53,461 nt of DNA from a virus: the IMG/VR virus record IMGVR_UViG_3300006162_000017, positions 1 to 53,461 of that record; one strand, given 5' to 3'. The notes beneath the pieces were generated by a model that was not told the DNA's origin, ran no database searches, and saw only the letters and a list, made by a program, of their open reading frames with translations. Made by a program: the position numbers and the translations under genes. Shown here in pieces: positions 5,631-31,732 of the stretch. Within the stretch, counting starts at the first letter, position 1; each line of letters starts with the position of its first letter.

Positions 5631-7083
5631 ATTCCTCTTCTTCTACTTCTTTTTCAGTAGGTGCTTCAATTATATTATCCAACAACATTCCCAAGTATGC
5701 GAAGGCATCAACTTGGTCATCTTTTACACCACGAGGGAACTTTAAAAGCTCATCTTCAAAGACAGGATACCAGTCAGAGGTTTTATCGAACTTTACTGTC
5801 TTCGCCCTCATTCTACCTTGAATACTTCTAGCTCTTTGGATCTTGTCCTTACCACCATGTTTTAGCTTAATTACGTTAGGGAAGATGTTCTGTTTAATCA
5901 TTTCTTCCCTAAGGAAGGGTCCAATGGACTTGGTAATCATCATATCTTCGATACCGAAAGCGTCAGCATCATAGATCTTTTGAAGAGACAGAATGGTGTC
6001 GATTATTTCTTTCGTATCCATCCGTTCTCGTATAACATTCCTAATATGAAGTCCACGATCTTCATCAACGGCAGCAACAACAAAAACAGAATAGTCACTA
6101 CGAGCTTCAGTGGACACAGCAGGATCGAGCGTAATGTAATATCTGACCTGCTTTTTCTTGTCTTCTTCTGGCTCATTTAGGAAGTCTCCACGGCGAAAGT
6201 AGGCTACTGTTTCGTCTAAGGGATTGTTAAGATACTCTTGCGAGTAGAGGTCCATCATCCCATCTTTGGAGAATTCTTCCATTCTTACTTTAAAATACTC
6301 TTTGGAGAATCTTTGTGGCCAGAGTATTTTATCGAAGTTGGGAGTATGCGCTCTATACTTAACTGACTTCCACATTAGTTTTTTAGGGTATGTAGTGTAT
6401 ACCTTTAAACCATCGTCTTGTGTCCATTTATCATTTGGCATCAGGTTCTCTAGGACCGAGTCCATGTGAAGTATAGTTCCCCACATCCTCATCTTGCCCT
6501 TTAGGGACAGTGCTGGGATCAGTGCTCCCCGGAACCATCTCTTGAGTTTGTCCCTTCGATCCTTGTTCATAACCAGTTCGTCGTTCTCTAAATCGTCTAC
6601 TAGAACCAAGTCTGGTCTTATACCATCCCATAAAAGTCCTCTAAGCTTTTGTTCAGCGCCCTTACCCATAACTCTAAAGGTCTTGCCATCTTCAAACTGA
6701 ACAATAAAGTCTGTTTCAGTATCTTTGATTAAACTGGCTTGCTTTTTCTCGTTTCTCTTAATTCCGAACAAATCTATTAAAGATTCATTCTCAGATATTT
6801 CCTGTTTCATGCTGGATACGAACATCGCCGCCTGAGCTTCCGTATCTGACACGATAAGGCAATATCTGGAGTTGCGGAATAACAGTTCGGCCAATCCGTA
6901 TGCTAGGGTTCCAGCCGTAGATTTGGCGTGTCCCCGTGGAGCAGCGATAGCTACAAACTGATGGTCCGAACATGCTAGTTCCCAAAGCTCTTTATGAAAT
7001 TGTGGAGTTTCAACAGCATCATCAAATCTCTTTGCTAATACTGATCCTACAAAACCTTCGATGATTGATGCAGTTAGTTTCAA
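5569..7083 (-). CDS. terL: Terminase large subunit
   Basis: The packaging motor, with an N-terminal ATPase and a C-terminal RNase H-fold nuclease. Walker A is APRGHAKST (residues 48-56), Walker B with the catalytic acid is DLVLVDDLEND (157-167). The nuclease part shows YYITLDPAVS (D319), a central acidic motif near FGIEDMM (375-381) and DDQVDAFAY (454-462). At 504 residues the length is usual. The start is a TTG overlapping the upstream stop (TTGA); there is no clear ribosome site, so translation is probably coupled to the gene before it. Unusually, a receptor-binding cassette separates it from the small subunit gene. Confidence 0.93.
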   Translation of the reverse strand: MKLTASIIEGFVGSVLAKRFDDAVETPQFHKELWELACSDHQFVAIAAPRGHAKSTAGTLAYGLAELLFRNSRYCLIVSDTEAQAAMFVSSMKQEISENESLIDLFGIKRNEKKQASLIKDTETDFIVQFEDGKTFRVMGKGAEQKLRGLLWDGIRPDLVLVDDLENDELVMNKDRRDKLKRWFRGALIPALSLKGKMRMWGTILHMDSVLENLMPNDKWTQDDGLKVYTTYPKKLMWKSVKYRAHTPNFDKILWPQRFSKEYFKVRMEEFSKDGMMDLYSQEYLNNPLDETVAYFRRGDFLNEPEEDKKKQVRYYITLDPAVSTEARSDYSVFVVAAVDEDRGLHIRNVIRERMDTKEIIDTILSLQKIYDADAFGIEDMMITKSIGPFLREEMIKQNIFPNVIKLKHGGKDKIQRARSIQGRMRAKTVKFDKTSDWYPVFEDELLKFPRGVKDDQVDAFAYLGMLLDNIIEAPTEKEVEEEEYEFELRQSEQPTGRSQWAGY

Positions 7084-8747
7084 GGGATTAGTTGAATTGC
7101 TTGCCTAATTTTATCAGCGATTCTTTGGCTATAATATCTATATCCAACTGGGGAGACATAATGAGTGGCATCATAATTATAAATATCGTTGTTACCAACG
7201 CCAGTTTGAGCTAAAGCATATCCAGTACCAGTAACCCAAGGTCCCGTAGTATCATTTGTAATAGAAAAATAAAATGTTTGGGGATCATTAAATTGTGCGA
7301 TAGCCGCTTGATATGCAGCATCTGTTAATGGATATCTACTTTGATTACTTGGAGAATTATTTACTCCAATAAAGAAAATTGGAACATTTCCTCTAAGTTG
7401 CCGAATATTTTGTAAAAGGGCCAATGTAGTAGTTTGTACAGAAGTATATCCATTCCCAGCACCCCAGGAACCATCATTAACAGATCCTTGAATAACAATT
7501 ACATCGGGATCTGGACAAGTTGCAACATCTTGATAACGATATATATAAGGTACTGTACCGGCATTAATAGTATTAGGAGCGATAACGCCAGCCCCAGCTT
7601 GTCCCCAGCTCCAATTATCTTCCCAACCAAGATATTTACCAACCATATTAGTGAAATCTCCACCAAGTCCGGTAGGTCCACCAAAAGAATCAGTAAACCA
7701 AACTGCACGAATAAATTGATTTCTTGCTAAAGGAAAAACACTATCTTGTTGATTAAAATTTAAAGAATAAAAAAAGCTAGTGTATCCTTGAATTTCTATA
7801 ACAACTTTTCTTAATTTGGGCTGTCTAGTTGGATAAGTAGCTGTAAAATCTACTGTAGCCCTAACAATAGCATTTCCTGGTACATTTGCCGCAACATAAT
7901 TTCCATAAGTTACATATTTATCGTCTACTAAAATTCTCATGGAGCCATTGCCGCCCCCACTAGAAATACCAACTCCAAATTTTACAGAATCTGTATAAAA
8001 TACAAGTTTTTGTGTGATTGCTGGAAGAGAATAACCAGTTTGGAAATTTGGTTGAATTGGCCAACCAGCGCCATTATTAGGTTGTGTTTGGGTAGCTCCT
8101 GCAGTTGGACCAGAAACACCATAAAAAGATACTCCAAGATTAGCAGCAGCGTAATTAAACCATAACCCGCCCGTAAAGGTTGCTAATTGCCCAGAAACTG
8201 GATAAGAAACCCCCCAATTTTTATTGTATAAAGTAGTTTCTACACCAAAACCAAAAGCAGTGTTACTGGTAACAGTTACAACTGGAGCGCCGGCTTGGGC
8301 AGAAGAATTAATAACTGGACCAATATAAGTCCAAGAACCGCTTCCATCTGTGATGGGAGTAGTACCTGTTCCAGTAGGAGCAGTGCCTGAAGTAGCTATA
8401 GTAGCTAAACAATTATATAAATTACCAGCATTTGAGACAATATGGTTTTGCTGATATGCTGTTGCAGTAACCCAAGCTGCTTCCGTTTGCCAAGGAGTAT
8501 TGGTCATTGGATTACCGTTTTGCTGTGCTTGTAATGCAAACCTACGTAATTTGCTACCAACAGTTTCTGAAGTTGCAGATGCATACGTCCAACCTGCTTG
8601 CAAAGCACCTGGAATATCTACAAATTGAATATCTGCCGTTCCTCCAGCATTGGACACATATTGAATACCACTTGAAGCACCAGTATATCTTGTATTGGCT
8701 ACAAGGCTAGGGGCTTTTAGTGTCTGAGATATAGTATTATTAGCCAT
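7080..8747 (-). CDS. Virion appendage protein with SGNH/GDSL hydrolase domain
   Basis: A 555-residue protein. The first ~230 residues are Thr/Gly/Asn-rich beta structure of tail-fibre type. The C-terminal part carries SGNH-hydrolase blocks: a nucleophile Ser in FTDSFGGPTG (block I), IQGSVNDG (block III, GxND type) and YDATHYVSPVGY (block V, DxxH). Such domains act on ester or acyl groups of surface polysaccharides, which would suit a receptor-modifying or depolymerising spike. Codons are markedly more AT-rich than in the neighbouring genes. Ribosome site agaggt. The substrate is unknown. Confidence 0.75.
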   Translation of the reverse strand: MANNTISQTLKAPSLVANTRYTGASSGIQYVSNAGGTADIQFVDIPGALQAGWTYASATSETVGSKLRRFALQAQQNGNPMTNTPWQTEAAWVTATAYQQNHIVSNAGNLYNCLATIATSGTAPTGTGTTPITDGSGSWTYIGPVINSSAQAGAPVVTVTSNTAFGFGVETTLYNKNWGVSYPVSGQLATFTGGLWFNYAAANLGVSFYGVSGPTAGATQTQPNNGAGWPIQPNFQTGYSLPAITQKLVFYTDSVKFGVGISSGGGNGSMRILVDDKYVTYGNYVAANVPGNAIVRATVDFTATYPTRQPKLRKVVIEIQGYTSFFYSLNFNQQDSVFPLARNQFIRAVWFTDSFGGPTGLGGDFTNMVGKYLGWEDNWSWGQAGAGVIAPNTINAGTVPYIYRYQDVATCPDPDVIVIQGSVNDGSWGAGNGYTSVQTTTLALLQNIRQLRGNVPIFFIGVNNSPSNQSRYPLTDAAYQAAIAQFNDPQTFYFSITNDTTGPWVTGTGYALAQTGVGNNDIYNYDATHYVSPVGYRYYSQRIADKIRQAIQLIP

Positions 8748-11053: not shown

Positions 11054-11659
11054 TCATAGCCCAAACTGCTTGAGGACACCAAACTTATACAATGCGAATG
11101 CTCCTGCGGCTAAAGCGCTCAGGACGGCCACGATCAAGGTCCAGTTCACCCCTGCACCAGCACTTTGGGTTGGAGCAGGTGCTTCTGATACGGAGGCTAC
11201 TTTCGGGGCCTCTACCACGGGACTCTTTGGAGTTTCCGCCTTGGGTGCCTCTACAGGCTTTTCCACAGGCCTTGCTGGTGTCTCAGTTTGTTGTACAGGA
11301 TGTTGGTCCTCAACCGCCTTAGATTGAACTTCCGCCTTAACTTCTGGCTTGGGCGCCTCTTCCTTGATTCCAGGCGTAGCTTCGACTGCATCATTATGGA
11401 CCTCTTGTTTGGCAGGGAGGGAGGGAGTCGAACCCTCATCCGTCAGTTTTGGAGACTGCTGCACGGCCGGTTGTGCTTCCTCTCTATGTTCTACAGGAAC
11501 CTCTTTAGAGGTTTCCGCAACTGTTTGCTTGATTACGGCCTTTAAGTTATCCTCTACATGCTGATTATGGGCATCAATAAGAACTTGATCCGTACCACCA
11601 GAACCCACATGTTGAACCAATTTAACGATCGAATCAGTGATATTCTTTACCTCTTCCAT
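11054..11659 (-). CDS. Pro/Glu/Ala-rich protein with C-terminal membrane anchor
   Basis: A 201-residue protein. The N-terminal ~50 residues could fold as a helix; residues about 55-165 are low-complexity Pro, Glu, Ala, Val and Lys, resembling the periplasm-spanning linker of TonB-type proteins; residues about 172-192 form one membrane helix (WTLIVAVLSALAAGAFALYK) followed by a short tail. Starts with a TAATG overlap. No signal peptide. Could be a tail-anchored membrane protein of the lysis or host-takeover set; function unknown. Confidence 0.6.
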   Translation of the reverse strand: MEEVKNITDSIVKLVQHVGSGGTDQVLIDAHNQHVEDNLKAVIKQTVAETSKEVPVEHREEAQPAVQQSPKLTDEGSTPSLPAKQEVHNDAVEATPGIKEEAPKPEVKAEVQSKAVEDQHPVQQTETPARPVEKPVEAPKAETPKSPVVEAPKVASVSEAPAPTQSAGAGVNWTLIVAVLSALAAGAFALYKFGVLKQFGL

Positions 11660-14566: not shown

Positions 14567-14643
14567 CTGTCCTTAGCTCAGTTGGATAGAGCACTGGCCT
14601 TCTAAGCCAGTGGTCAGAGGTTCGAATCCTCTAGGACAGGCCA
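14567..14643 (+). tRNA. tRNA-Arg (anticodon TCT)
   Basis: Complete cloverleaf: acceptor CTGTCCT/AGGACAG, D-arm GCTC...GAGC, anticodon stem CTGGC/GCCAG with loop CTTCTAA, T-arm AGAGG-TTCGAAT-CCTCT, discriminator G and encoded CCA. Reads AGA codons, which are frequent in the phage genes but rare in many GC-rich hosts. Confidence 0.95.
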
Positions 14644-15575: not shown

Positions 15576-15658
15576 GTGCCCATGGTGGAATTGGTAGACA
15601 CAAGAGACTTAAAATCTCTCGCGTAAGCGTGCGAGTTCGAGTCTCGCTGGGCATACCA
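15576..15658 (+). tRNA. tRNA-Leu (anticodon TAA)
   Basis: Class II tRNA of 83 bases: acceptor GTGCCCA/TGGGCAT (one G-T pair), D-loop with TTGGTAGA, anticodon stem AGAGA/TCTCT with loop CTTAAAA, an extended variable arm (CGCGTAAGCG), T-arm GCGAG-TTCGAGT-CTCGC and encoded CCA. Reads TTA, a codon typical of AT-rich genes. Confidence 0.95.
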
Positions 15659-15893: not shown

Positions 15894-15970
15894 GGGCCGC
15901 TAGCTTAATTGGTTAGAGCAAGCGACTCATAATCGCTAGGTTATTGGTTCGAGTCCAATGCGGCCCACCA
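15894..15970 (+). tRNA. tRNA-Ile2 (CAT anticodon, lysidine type; tRNA-Met less likely)
   Basis: Acceptor GGGCCGC/GCGGCCC, anticodon stem AGCGA/TCGCT with loop CTCATAA, T-arm ATTGG-TTCGAGT-CCAAT, encoded CCA. The stem GCGACTCATAATCGC matches the bacterial minor isoleucine tRNA rather than elongator Met, and there is no initiator-type 1-72 mismatch. After TilS modification it would read ATA. Confidence 0.88.
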
Positions 15971-28997: not shown

Positions 28998-29122
28998 TAC
29001 CTACTGATCCAGATAGTATTGAGTATATTTTGAGTACAGCCAACATAGATTGGCAAGAGTTTTACGAGGAGCGCGCTATTGACCTACTTGGTGATAGATT
29101 CAGAGAACACTACGTGGAGTAA
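28994..29122 (+). CDS. Small acidic hypothetical protein, 42 residues
   Basis: ATG 28994 overlaps the previous stop. A short acidic helical peptide beginning MIPTDPDSIEYILSTANIDW, ending REHYVE. Its 3' half overlaps the polymerase N-terminal gene by 44 bases. Tight packing supports translation; function unknown. Confidence 0.55.
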   Translation: MIPTDPDSIEYILSTANIDWQEFYEERAIDLLGDRFREHYVE

Positions 29123-30197
29123 AGGTGATCCGCATGACCAAAGAAACAAAAACGTCTGCTGGTCTTTCAAAGAGTCAGGTAAAGAGGCTGTCTGTACAAA
29201 TGAAAAGAAAGAAGTTAGAGAAGCAGTACAAAGAGCTGGGACGCTCGTTGGATTCCACCTTGGGTATGACCTTGAATGGCTTTGGAAAGAAGGAATAGAT
29301 ACAGAAGGTAAGAAGTTTTTTTGTTGTCAGGTAGCTGAATTTGTACTCAATTCGTACACTACACCATATCCGTCATTAAATGACGTAGCCCAAAAATATT
29401 TAAACAGGCAGAAACTGGATGTAGTAGAGAAAGAGTACTGGTCCAAGGGAATAAATACAGATCAAATTCCTTGGGACATATTAGCCGAGTACGCACGCCG
29501 TGACGTTGAACTTACGGAAGCTGTGTACTTAAAACAACTAAAATTAATTCCGGCAAGTAAACAGAAGTTAATTAGTTTGAAAATGCAGGACATGGCAGTA
29601 CTCGCAGAGATGCGCTTTGCTGGCATGAAGTTTGATAGGGAATACGCTGAACAACAAGCAACGAGAATCCGACAAGAGATTCAGGAAATCCAATCAAGAC
29701 TTAACTTACTCCATAATATCCCTTCCTTTAATTGGGCTTCTGGGGATCATTTATCTGCCCTTCTCTATGGTGGGGAGATTGTTGAGAAAAAGAGAGTTCC
29801 GATAGGAAAGTACAAGAGCGGAGCGAAGGTCGGTGAAAATAGATACCAGATCCAAGAAGAAGTTCATTCTCTTCCCAGATTGTATAAACCAATTCGTGGA
29901 AGTGAATTAAAAAAAGGAGGAGTGTGGTCAACTGACGAAGATACTCTTAAGAAGCTAGACGATGGCACAGAACTGATCGGAGGTATCTTAAAGTTACGGG
30001 AGTTGTCCAAACTTGTCGGAACATACTATGAAGGAATTCCAGAACTGGCTAGAGAGTCCTTTTGGCCTGAAGGCTACCTGTATGGCAATTTTAATCAGTG
30101 TGTTGCTGCAACTGGTAGGCTTAGCTCTAGCCGTCCTAACCTTCAGAACATTAGTGGAGACGCTCTAAAGATGTTTACATCGAGATGGGAGGAATGA
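29079..30197 (+). CDS. DNA polymerase I family, N-terminal piece (exonuclease and thumb)
   Basis: 372 residues that align with the first part of a family A polymerase. A DnaQ-type 3'-5' proofreading domain occupies residues about 1-150: LVIDSENT (Asp7, Glu9), GFHLGYDLEWL and YARRDVELTEAVY. A helical thumb follows, and CVAATGRLSSSRPNLQNI near residue 345 is the conserved segment that precedes motif A. The protein stops at MFTSRWEE, just where motif A should begin; the rest lies at 30586-31299. Contains one GGTCGGTG. The start codon is TTG/ATG-poor; TTG-type initiation at 29079 is assumed. Confidence 0.85.
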   Translation: MTYLVIDSENTTWSKGDPHDQRNKNVCWSFKESGKEAVCTNEKKEVREAVQRAGTLVGFHLGYDLEWLWKEGIDTEGKKFFCCQVAEFVLNSYTTPYPSLNDVAQKYLNRQKLDVVEKEYWSKGINTDQIPWDILAEYARRDVELTEAVYLKQLKLIPASKQKLISLKMQDMAVLAEMRFAGMKFDREYAEQQATRIRQEIQEIQSRLNLLHNIPSFNWASGDHLSALLYGGEIVEKKRVPIGKYKSGAKVGENRYQIQEEVHSLPRLYKPIRGSELKKGGVWSTDEDTLKKLDDGTELIGGILKLRELSKLVGTYYEGIPELARESFWPEGYLYGNFNQCVAATGRLSSSRPNLQNISGDALKMFTSRWEE

Positions 30198-30460
30198 TGC
30201 GGTGTGATGAATGTAAGTTTAGTAAGGTTAAGACTACTTTAGCTCCTGATAAGGAACTGGTTTCACAGAGGTTTTGTATGTTCAATCTGCCATCTGTCCA
30301 GCTCATTCCTACCCAACATGGGCCAGCTAGGATCAGTTTCAGGCCAGAAGTAGAAGATGATGATTTCTGTAAGGAGTTCGTAAAGAAACCCGGAAAGGCC
30401 AATGTACATGCAATCTTCAATGAATCAGAGTCAGCAGGAACAGGCCCTGTCGCTGAGTAG
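30197..30460 (+). CDS. Small Cys-rich protein inserted in the polymerase locus
   Basis: An 87-residue protein, MRCDECKFSKV start, with Cys at 3, 6 and two later ones (CMF, CKEF), and a segment QLIPTQHGPARISFRPE. It begins at the ATGATG that overlaps the stop of the N-terminal polymerase piece; an ATG four codons earlier is also possible. The CxxC start resembles small metal-binding phage proteins. It does not resemble a homing endonuclease. Confidence 0.6.
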   Translation: MRCDECKFSKVKTTLAPDKELVSQRFCMFNLPSVQLIPTQHGPARISFRPEVEDDDFCKEFVKKPGKANVHAIFNESESAGTGPVAE

Positions 30461-30752
30461 TCTGTACATCCAGACGTTTGGTGCTAGGACCTATCTGGAT
30501 GCCTTTAAGGATGCTTTCCCAAGAGAGTGTCAGAACCTTGTAGATGTAATTATAGGGCAACAGAAGAAAAAGGGAGTTTTGCTAGATGCTGGTAGTTTGC
30601 GACGCAAGCCAGTTAGAGTGGAGGATACTGCTCCTGCTGAGCGGAGACCAAGTAGGTATCCGGGAGATCGTGGAGGGGCAGGACGTACACGGAAACAACC
30701 AGAAGGAACTGAAGCTGCCGTCACGCCTGATAGCAAAGATCTTCCTGTTTAG
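30402..30752 (+). CDS. Second small protein inserted in the polymerase locus
   Basis: A frame of 116 codons from ATG 30402 (ggaaagg upstream; ATG 30408 or 30420 also possible). Residues about 18-62 look like a true protein (SSLYIQTFGARTYLDAFKDA, then CQNLVDVIIGQQKKKG). After about residue 62 the frame is simply the other-frame reading of polymerase motif A DNA and is Arg/Pro-rich, so the natural protein may once have ended there. No family recognised. Confidence 0.5.
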   Translation: MYMQSSMNQSQQEQALSLSSLYIQTFGARTYLDAFKDAFPRECQNLVDVIIGQQKKKGVLLDAGSLRRKPVRVEDTAPAERRPSRYPGDRGGAGRTRKQPEGTEAAVTPDSKDLPV

Positions 30753-31299
30753 GACTATCTTCAGGGGGTCTGGGTGGGCGTTTGCCAAGGACAATGATTT
30801 CAGGCATATCAGCGATGATCCGAAGTTCTGGGATGAACGGAATGAAGCTTTCTATAGAAAATACTGGGAGATAGACAGATGCCATCAGACGTGGGCAATG
30901 CAAGTGATGAAGAACCATTTCATGTCCGGACCCTCGGGGGCGACATGGGAGATCTCGCCAAAAGAAGATGGCAACATACCATGGACGCAATTGACCAACT
31001 ACCCCGTTCAGGGAACAGCGGCGGACTTAATGTCAATAGCTCGTGTTTCCCTAAGGAACCGCCTCCGGGCTGGGAAATTACAATCATTCTTGACCAGCAC
31101 GGTACACGATTCACTTATAGTGGATGGGCCTGCATCTGAGCTTGACAAAGTAGCAGAATTAATGTACAATACGTTCTATAGTCTTGTACCTAATATGAAG
31201 AAATTGTGGGGAATAGAGAGTCCAATCCCGTTTCCCTGTGAAGTAAAGTACGGCCCTAATCAAGGAGATCTGGTTAAGTATGGAAACGATCCACATTGA
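30586..31299 (+). CDS. DNA polymerase I family, C-terminal piece (palm and fingers)
   Basis: 237 residues starting MLVVCDASQLEWR: motif A with catalytic Asp6. The fingers helix follows (PSRLIAKIFLFRTIFRGSGW, Arg47 and Lys51), and motif C is STVHDSLIVD (His174, Asp175). These are the polymerase active-site parts missing from the N-terminal piece. ATG 30586 has its own ribosome site (agggag, 9 bases before) and follows an in-frame TAG, so it is made as a separate chain that must pair with the first. Alternatively the two are exons around a spliced insert. Confidence 0.85.
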   Translation: MLVVCDASQLEWRILLLLSGDQVGIREIVEGQDVHGNNQKELKLPSRLIAKIFLFRTIFRGSGWAFAKDNDFRHISDDPKFWDERNEAFYRKYWEIDRCHQTWAMQVMKNHFMSGPSGATWEISPKEDGNIPWTQLTNYPVQGTAADLMSIARVSLRNRLRAGKLQSFLTSTVHDSLIVDGPASELDKVAELMYNTFYSLVPNMKKLWGIESPIPFPCEVKYGPNQGDLVKYGNDPH

Positions 31300-31732
31300 G
31301 ATTTTGAACATTGCTGTTGACAAGGTAAAGACCTATCAACAGATGACAGTAACGTATAAGACCCCAGAGGGTAAGCTTGACTCCAAGAAGATCATGGATT
31401 TTGTCAAGCCAACCAATGTTTGGGATGCTCTAGTTAAGGCTAATCCGGGGGATACGTTCACTGTTGAACGTGAAAAGAACGCCAAGGGATATTGGGATTG
31501 GAAGGAAATCCATCGTCAGGATGGGACAGTAGCAGCGGGGGCACCTGTGGCAGGACATTCATATGAAGACAAGAGACAGAAGTTTATTATCCGCCAGAGT
31601 TGTCTGGCGCAAGCAGTAGCTTTAAGCAGGAAGCCCACGGAACCTGATGAAATTAATTATCTGGAAGAAGTGGGAGAGATTTTAAGTCTAGCAGAAGAGT
31701 TTGAAAAGTGGGTACTCAGGGAGACTGTATAA
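31280..31732 (+). CDS. Probable single-stranded DNA-binding protein
   Basis: A 150-residue protein with OB-fold-like strands and aromatic residues (VTYKTPEGKLDSKKIMDFV, then GDTFTVEREKNAKGYWDWKE), a flexible linker, and RQKFIIRQSCLAQAVALSR followed by an acidic C-terminal half (EVGEILSLAEEFEKW). Similar proteins lie beside phage polymerases and are annotated as ssDNA-binding proteins. The start overlaps the polymerase stop. The assignment is by pattern and position only. Confidence 0.6.
   Translation: METIHIEILNIAVDKVKTYQQMTVTYKTPEGKLDSKKIMDFVKPTNVWDALVKANPGDTFTVEREKNAKGYWDWKEIHRQDGTVAAGAPVAGHSYEDKRQKFIIRQSCLAQAVALSRKPTEPDEINYLEEVGEILSLAEEFEKWVLRETV

Follow-up and report, generated by a model that had tools for sequence, protein, structure and literature searches.

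Background

Genes for replication enzymes that are encoded in pieces have been described in several phages. The available part of the report on the OM43 phage MEP401 (PMC10580990) states that most genomes of group I have a split polymerase and mentions an intron as a possible cause, a question that is left open there. In Aeromonas phage 25, the two polymerase chains gp43A and gp43B co-purify and are active (PMC2988022). In T4, a topoisomerase gene was split by the HNH gene mobA. Gene 60, which lies downstream, contains an insertion of 50 nt that includes a stop codon and a stem-loop; ribosomes bypass this insertion, and a protective role against the nuclease has been suggested for it (PMC3014915, PMC5009743). 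For the Vibrio cholerae phage ICP2 (L005, NC_015158, 3959-6527), the RefSeq record joins a DNA polymerase CDS around an HNH gene. Here we analyze a split family A DNA polymerase in a 53,461-base IMG/VR virus record, the whole of which is referred to as the window, and compare it with its relatives.

Results

The family A DNA polymerase of the window is encoded by two ORFs on the plus strand. The N chain (29079..30197, TTG start, 372 aa) comprises the 3'-5' exonuclease, the thumb and the first palm segment, and the C chain (30586..31299, ATG start, 237 aa) extends from motif A to the C terminus. The halves are separated by exactly 388 bases (30198-30585). Translation of the N ORF ends in ...GRLSSSRPNLQNISGDALKMFTSRWEE*, the chain terminating past GRLSSSRPNLQN...MFTSRWEE, and the C ORF begins MLVVCDASQLEWR. 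A sequence-only reading had proposed a polymerase split before motif A, with two small ORFs in a 388-base gap, and this is borne out by the coordinates and by the Pfam matches. The N chain matches the PF01612 exonuclease profile, and its exonuclease motifs DSE and YARRD are present, as is GRLSSS. PF00476 is matched by both chains, at profile positions 54-132 by N and 154-378 by C, so that only about 20 profile positions at the break are uncovered. In the C chain, the Asp of motif A is codon 6, and fingers with the O-helix (R..AK..F) and motif C (VHDS) are found; all catalytic motifs are kept across the two halves. In the alignment, both window ends, on the N stop side and on the C start side, coincide with the half boundaries of other members. 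The same reading had noted that no residues of the usual sequence seem to be lost between the two pieces, a description that holds.

The N stop codon (TGA) overlaps the ATG of the next ORF, an arrangement that suggests translational coupling. A ribosome-binding-like GGGAGGA is located at 30187..30193 on the plus strand, and a second such sequence, GGGAG, at 30572..30576 on the same strand, 9 bases 5' of the C-chain ATG; both may function in translation initiation. The first small ORF, ORF1 (30194..30460, plus strand; longest form from 30185), is Cys-rich and could start at an ATG at 30194 or 30197, in either case overlapping the N stop with its own GGGAGGA upstream. No ORF1 homologues were found in phage records or among the fetched loci. 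The second, ORF2 (30402..30752, plus strand), has in-frame ATGs at 30402 and 30408 and a conserved part at approximately 30408-30585, and overlaps the C gene by 167 bases in a different frame. Domain searches detected no homing-nuclease domain in ORF1 or ORF2, as had been suggested for these ORFs, and the window has neither an HNH gene in its gap nor a frame-breaking insertion at the start of its C gene. Elsewhere in the window, we noted four tRNA genes, for Trp (11410-11485), Arg (14567-14643), Leu (15576-15658) and Met (15894-15970). Directly after the C chain lies an unannotated ORF (31280-31732) that by eye resembles post-C ORFs of several relatives (L001, 4788-5369; L003, 4721-5263; L004, 8708-9247) and perhaps encodes a single-strand DNA-binding protein.

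The nearest tblastn matches among phage records were Alcaligenes phage QDWS535, the Manatee Spring phages ctOsX528 and ct2os315, and the Methylophilales phages MEP401 and MEP402, in each of which N and C match separately, and scans of IMG/VR yielded more than 100 further loci. The split point is identical in 87 of 87 clade members, a recurrence beyond chance, and none has a single ORF. An uninterrupted gene, which the sequence-only reading had named as something to look for in relatives, thus does not occur within the clade; all loci with both halves have them as separate ORFs, with the distant loci L091 and L092 (one ORF each) as the only exceptions. QDWS535, MEP401 and MEP402 are isolates, and the other members are metagenomic phages. 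The distance between the halves ranges from -17 to approximately 3,600 bases. In the zero-gap loci L017 and L062, the halves are in one frame with a single stop followed by an ATG, and in QDWS535 (L001), which has no insert, stop and start overlap as TAATG; a stop and a start are also retained in the insert-free loci L053, L082, L085 and L086. The junction holds one ORF of about 77 aa in MEP401 and MEP402 and one ORF in ctOsX528, while that of ct2os315 (L004) spans 3.6 kb and contains seven annotated genes, one of which encodes a C5 (cytosine) methyltransferase. The ctOsX528 ORF (L002, MW202697, 3791-3997) is annotated as R67 dihydrofolate reductase. The C gene of the same phage has a one-base insertion in an A run, and therefore its annotated C ORF lacks motif A.

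In a FastTree analysis of 95 rows, the 87 split rows formed one group with a local support of 100, and the window was placed inside it, in a four-row subgroup with L011, L039 and L151 whose inner placement is unsure owing to several long branches. Identity between the window and its nearest relatives is only about 50%; single-sequence searches gave no close relatives of the C chain and only relatives at 43-44% for the N chain. With respect to its replication genes, the window resembles Zobellviridae. C-chain pairs in the clade had dN/dS values well below 1. A search restricted to PF00476 detected no other match to this family in the isolates QDWS535, MEP401 and ICP2. When the L017 halves were read through the stop and modeled as a single fused chain, the predicted fold was like those of the Klenow, Bst and Taq polymerases (Foldseek E of about 1e-19, TM of about 0.5-0.6), the model being of moderate confidence (mean pLDDT 69) with an N half derived from four full-length alignment rows.

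Many gaps in the clade encode an ORF of 50-75 aa that ends at or near the C-chain start. An HMM of this junction family, built without the window sequence, recovered 28 strong members, all of which are located between the halves where a locus has both; those of L022 and L028 were automatically labelled 'out' because their stop-to-stop ORFs start inside the N gene. ORF2 of the window matched the HMM with an E-value of 0.023 among 18,538 ORFs, a match that is weak alone but lies at the expected place and fits the family alignment. Gap ORFs of the L070/L075 type gave E-values of 0.01-0.26, also in place. An AlphaFold2 model of the junction protein consists of three helices (pLDDT 88), with no fold match in the PDB. 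The most constant resident of the gap is, as judged from these comparisons, a small three-helix protein, and ORF2 is probably a diverged member of this family. Some junction proteins (L029, 3506-3706; L040, 4338-4529; L047, 5603-5791) start with QLDLF, which we take to resemble the beta-clamp binding motif and which could be a clamp tether for the split polymerase.

Among loci readable through motif A, 17 relatives (18 with L258, a bacterial MAG contig), or about one in six, carry an insertion of 1-10 bases in or beside the DASQLEW codons that gives a stop or a frameshift, as compared with 88 clean split-clade loci including the window. CTT[TAGCCC]GAR is found in L028, L130, L143, L144 and L258, CTT[TAGCTT]GAA in L124, CTT[TA]GAR in L040, L127 and L074, CTT[T]GAG in L038 and L042, CAG[TAGCGG]CTA in L037, and GAA[TAGCTACGNN]TGG in L047 and L048, and other forms occur in L002, L036, L041 and L061. 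The CUU UGA of L038 and L042 is also that of the prfB frameshift. Among the interrupted IMG/VR loci that have a Leu codon immediately before the stop, this codon is CTT in 10 of 10, as compared with 22 of the 88 clean loci. The frame 3' of the insertion is open, and dN/dS was 0.04-0.22 where dS was unsaturated, many nearest pairs being saturated and uninformative and most pairs consisting of an interrupted and a clean locus; for the interrupted pair L143/L144, dN/dS was 0.08. No second PolA was found in the 12 interrupted records searched. Suppression of the stops by a phage tRNA was also considered and rejected, as there was no suppressor tRNA among the loci scanned.

In 6 of the 17 interrupted loci and in none of the 88 clean loci, a free-standing HNH gene or remnant ends at most 120 bases 5' of the Asp codon of motif A (Fisher, 8e-6, a value that is indicative because the loci are related). 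HNH genes are located in the gaps of L028, L036, L041, L074 and L130. Beyond a clearly more diverged first stretch, the C gene of L074, with its HNH gene and [TA] insertion, is nearly identical to that of L058, which has no gap and is clean; the diverged stretch adjoins the insertion, which is the pattern that co-conversion would leave. An intron was rejected as the cause of the insertions, as no group I signal was detected beside the HNH genes of these five loci, and the only intron signal in this comparison was a separate one in the N gene of L047.

In the interrupted loci, the start region of the C gene pairs with the DASQ(L) codons to form a predicted hairpin whose helix ends at the insertion. 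The median folding energy was -17.3 kcal/mol in interrupted loci and -9.2 kcal/mol in clean loci (Mann-Whitney, 1.6e-8), and motif A of the window, which is uninterrupted, lacks this hairpin (folding z +0.34). Swapping the 5' arms between interrupted loci abolished the hairpin, with 0 of 20,000 permutations matching the native sum, whereas the same swaps had no such effect in clean loci (14,844 of 20,000). This suggests compensatory change in different sequences, among loci that are related and not independent.

Discussion

The results indicate that the window very probably encodes a family A DNA polymerase as separately translated N and C polypeptides, and that neither an intron nor a broken gene accounts for the two ORFs. 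Such a split is new for the window record, and its kind is already known from MEP401-type phages. In the best reading, the two chains would reassemble: the N chain would supply the proofreading exonuclease together with the thumb and the initial palm strands, and the C chain, beginning with the strand that bears the catalytic Asp of motif A, the fingers and the remaining palm. By comparison with Klenow-type polymerases, the break presumably corresponds to a turn between two adjacent palm strands. The halves would therefore be expected to pair via the sheet and to rebuild one active site. Both would be translated from one unspliced polycistronic mRNA through the overlapping stops and starts and the ribosome-binding sites. 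The split appears to be ancestral and fixed in a large phage clade, and the interval would now accumulate genes. The junction protein may be a partner of the split enzyme, a role that we propose only tentatively.

It is very improbable that a self-splicing group I or group II intron interrupts a single polymerase gene and is spliced from the mRNA. Phage polA genes are frequent intron targets, the MEP401 authors considered an intron (PMC10580990), and relatives do have real group I introns within the N or the C gene. Rfam group I introns were found in L118, L117, L013, L155 and L047 (E-values of 2e-5 to 0.07, below the curated threshold), in all cases within the N gene, at GRLSSSRP^NLQN, and accompanied by an HNH_3 ORF, which indicates that the search can work in this family. 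In L258, we also noted a probable C-gene intron (about 6453-7234, at NYPV^QGTGAD), as judged from an HNH_3 ORF and an ORF break. However, the same search of 29000-31400 of the window gave no intron core at E<=1. Furthermore, the insert can be 0, 80, 390 or 3,600 bases long and consists mostly of ordinary small genes, in one member of 3.6 kb of unrelated genes, and a stop plus a start is kept even where the distance between the halves is 0 or -1 bases, which is not the behavior of an intron. The sequence-only reading had offered two chains or an intron, and had pointed to group I and group II cores as the signal of the latter; the first alternative is supported by the same break in 87 of 87 members and by the zero-gap stop and start, and the second is disfavored by the Rfam result and by gaps of up to 3.6 kb.

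A broken pseudogene or an assembly error would explain a stop and 388 extra bases in a normally continuous gene. It is nevertheless highly improbable, given that the break recurs in numerous independent metagenomes as well as in isolates, that all catalytic motifs are retained with C-chain dN/dS well below 1, and that the record contains no further PolA. Joining of the chains during or after translation, by a split intein, a ribosomal frameshift or a bypass over the gap, has as little chance of being correct: split inteins occur in other polymerases and relatives have probable recoding sites in motif A, but no intein or Hint domain was detected in N or C at E<=1, N stops at most a few residues from the usual break, C has its own ATG and ribosome-binding-like site, and a bypass of 3.6 kb is not credible.

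In some relatives of the window, HNH endonuclease genes would have entered the interval, accompanied by a hairpin and a short frame-breaking insertion in motif A, and the insertions may be decoded by ribosome slippage or hopping. By analogy, these loci may carry a recoding cassette similar to that of T4 but shorter, and ribosomes probably pass the motif A breaks by a jump that the hairpin assists. In a fuller form of this proposal, the gap is the landing site of a mobile cassette: an HNH homing endonuclease would arrive with the hairpin and the insertion of 1-10 nt in the catalytic motif A codons, masking the endonuclease target, while ribosomes would slip or hop over it by +1, +2, +6 or larger steps, in most cases starting at a CUU codon that a stop follows. 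The polymerase would thereby remain active. The junction protein would be a third subunit of the split enzyme. L124 (CUU UAG CUU) would be a candidate for a natural stop hop. TAGCCC has no matched landing codon and would thus need readthrough or an unconventional landing, and we therefore give this proposal about an even chance. If it is true, a mechanism like that of T4 gene 60 has arisen in many lineages of one family.

The insertions could instead be dead-end scars from the repair of homing-endonuclease cutting, which would leave the polymerases of these relatives inactive. This appears unlikely. In its favor, motif A is precisely where the insertions lie, a free HNH gene or its remnant is present just upstream in 6 of 17 loci, and the divergent tract beside the L074 insertion is as in recent gene conversion. 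On the other hand, the insertions occur in 18 loci from several data sets, among them a bacterial MAG contig, no second PolA was found in the 12 records searched, and the downstream frame is open with dN/dS of about 0.04-0.22 (unsaturated dS; 0.08 for L143/L144). Identical CTT[TAGCCC]GAR insertions in diverged lineages and a compensated hairpin exclusive to interrupted loci also argue against scars. The relatives, though not the window, thus carry a probable homing-linked recoding element of a new kind.

On comparative evidence, our analysis provides a computational answer to the question of intron or two chains posed by the MEP401 report. It also points to an entire phage clade whose family A polymerases consist of two chains divided at the active site, which would be a natural start for split-polymerase enzymology. 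Furthermore, if the insertions are decoded as proposed, bypass of the T4 gene 60 type would be recurrent, testable and tied to homing endonucleases. Two observations are new here: a family of small three-helix proteins encoded between the halves, to which ORF2 probably belongs, and motif A insertions behind a covarying hairpin in 18 relatives of the window. Both go beyond the sequence-only reading, as does the occurrence of homing nucleases in the gaps of relatives.

Among known systems, MEP401 and MEP402 share with the window the split point and the order of exonuclease and PolA N followed by PolA C, with a small ORF between, and belong to the same tree clade; the window differs from MEP401 in having a different pair of small ORFs. 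As compared with the available part of the MEP401 report (PMC10580990), our analysis adds gaps of zero length and gaps with several genes, a wider clade, the family of small proteins, the HNH invasions and the motif A insertions. ICP2 also has a PolA split near motif A, but, unlike the window, it has an HNH gene in the gap, and its break is about 15 residues earlier, after NLQNISN. Its HNH-less sister Rostov-5342 (L251, 2459-4552) keeps NLQNISN*, then AAGGA and ATGAGTGATATT (MSDIKRC...). Because stop, Shine-Dalgarno sequence and ATG are retained without the HNH gene, ICP2 is most simply read as having two chains, and the joined RefSeq CDS probably represents two separate genes. The ICP2 lineage lies outside the clade, grouped with an unsplit polymerase, and therefore its split is probably independent.

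As proposed for the window, the T4-related Aeromonas phages 25 and 44RR (gp43A/gp43B) and Aeh1 (split NrdA) have a replication enzyme made as two chains (PMC2988022), although gp43A/gp43B is a family B polymerase with a different break and is found in few phages. The T4 39/mobA/60 arrangement resembles the interrupted relatives and not the window, in that a split gene with an HNH gene between its parts has a stop-containing insertion and a stem-loop near the downstream start. In the relatives, however, the insertion is of 1-10 nt and not 50, the hairpin is upstream of the stop, many lineages are involved and the recoding is putative. Finally, the group I introns with HNH genes in the polymerase genes of SPO1, Bastille and Pf-WMP3 have the same target gene, and probable examples occur in relatives of the window; in the window itself, by contrast, the gap is without an intron core and the halves are separate ORFs.
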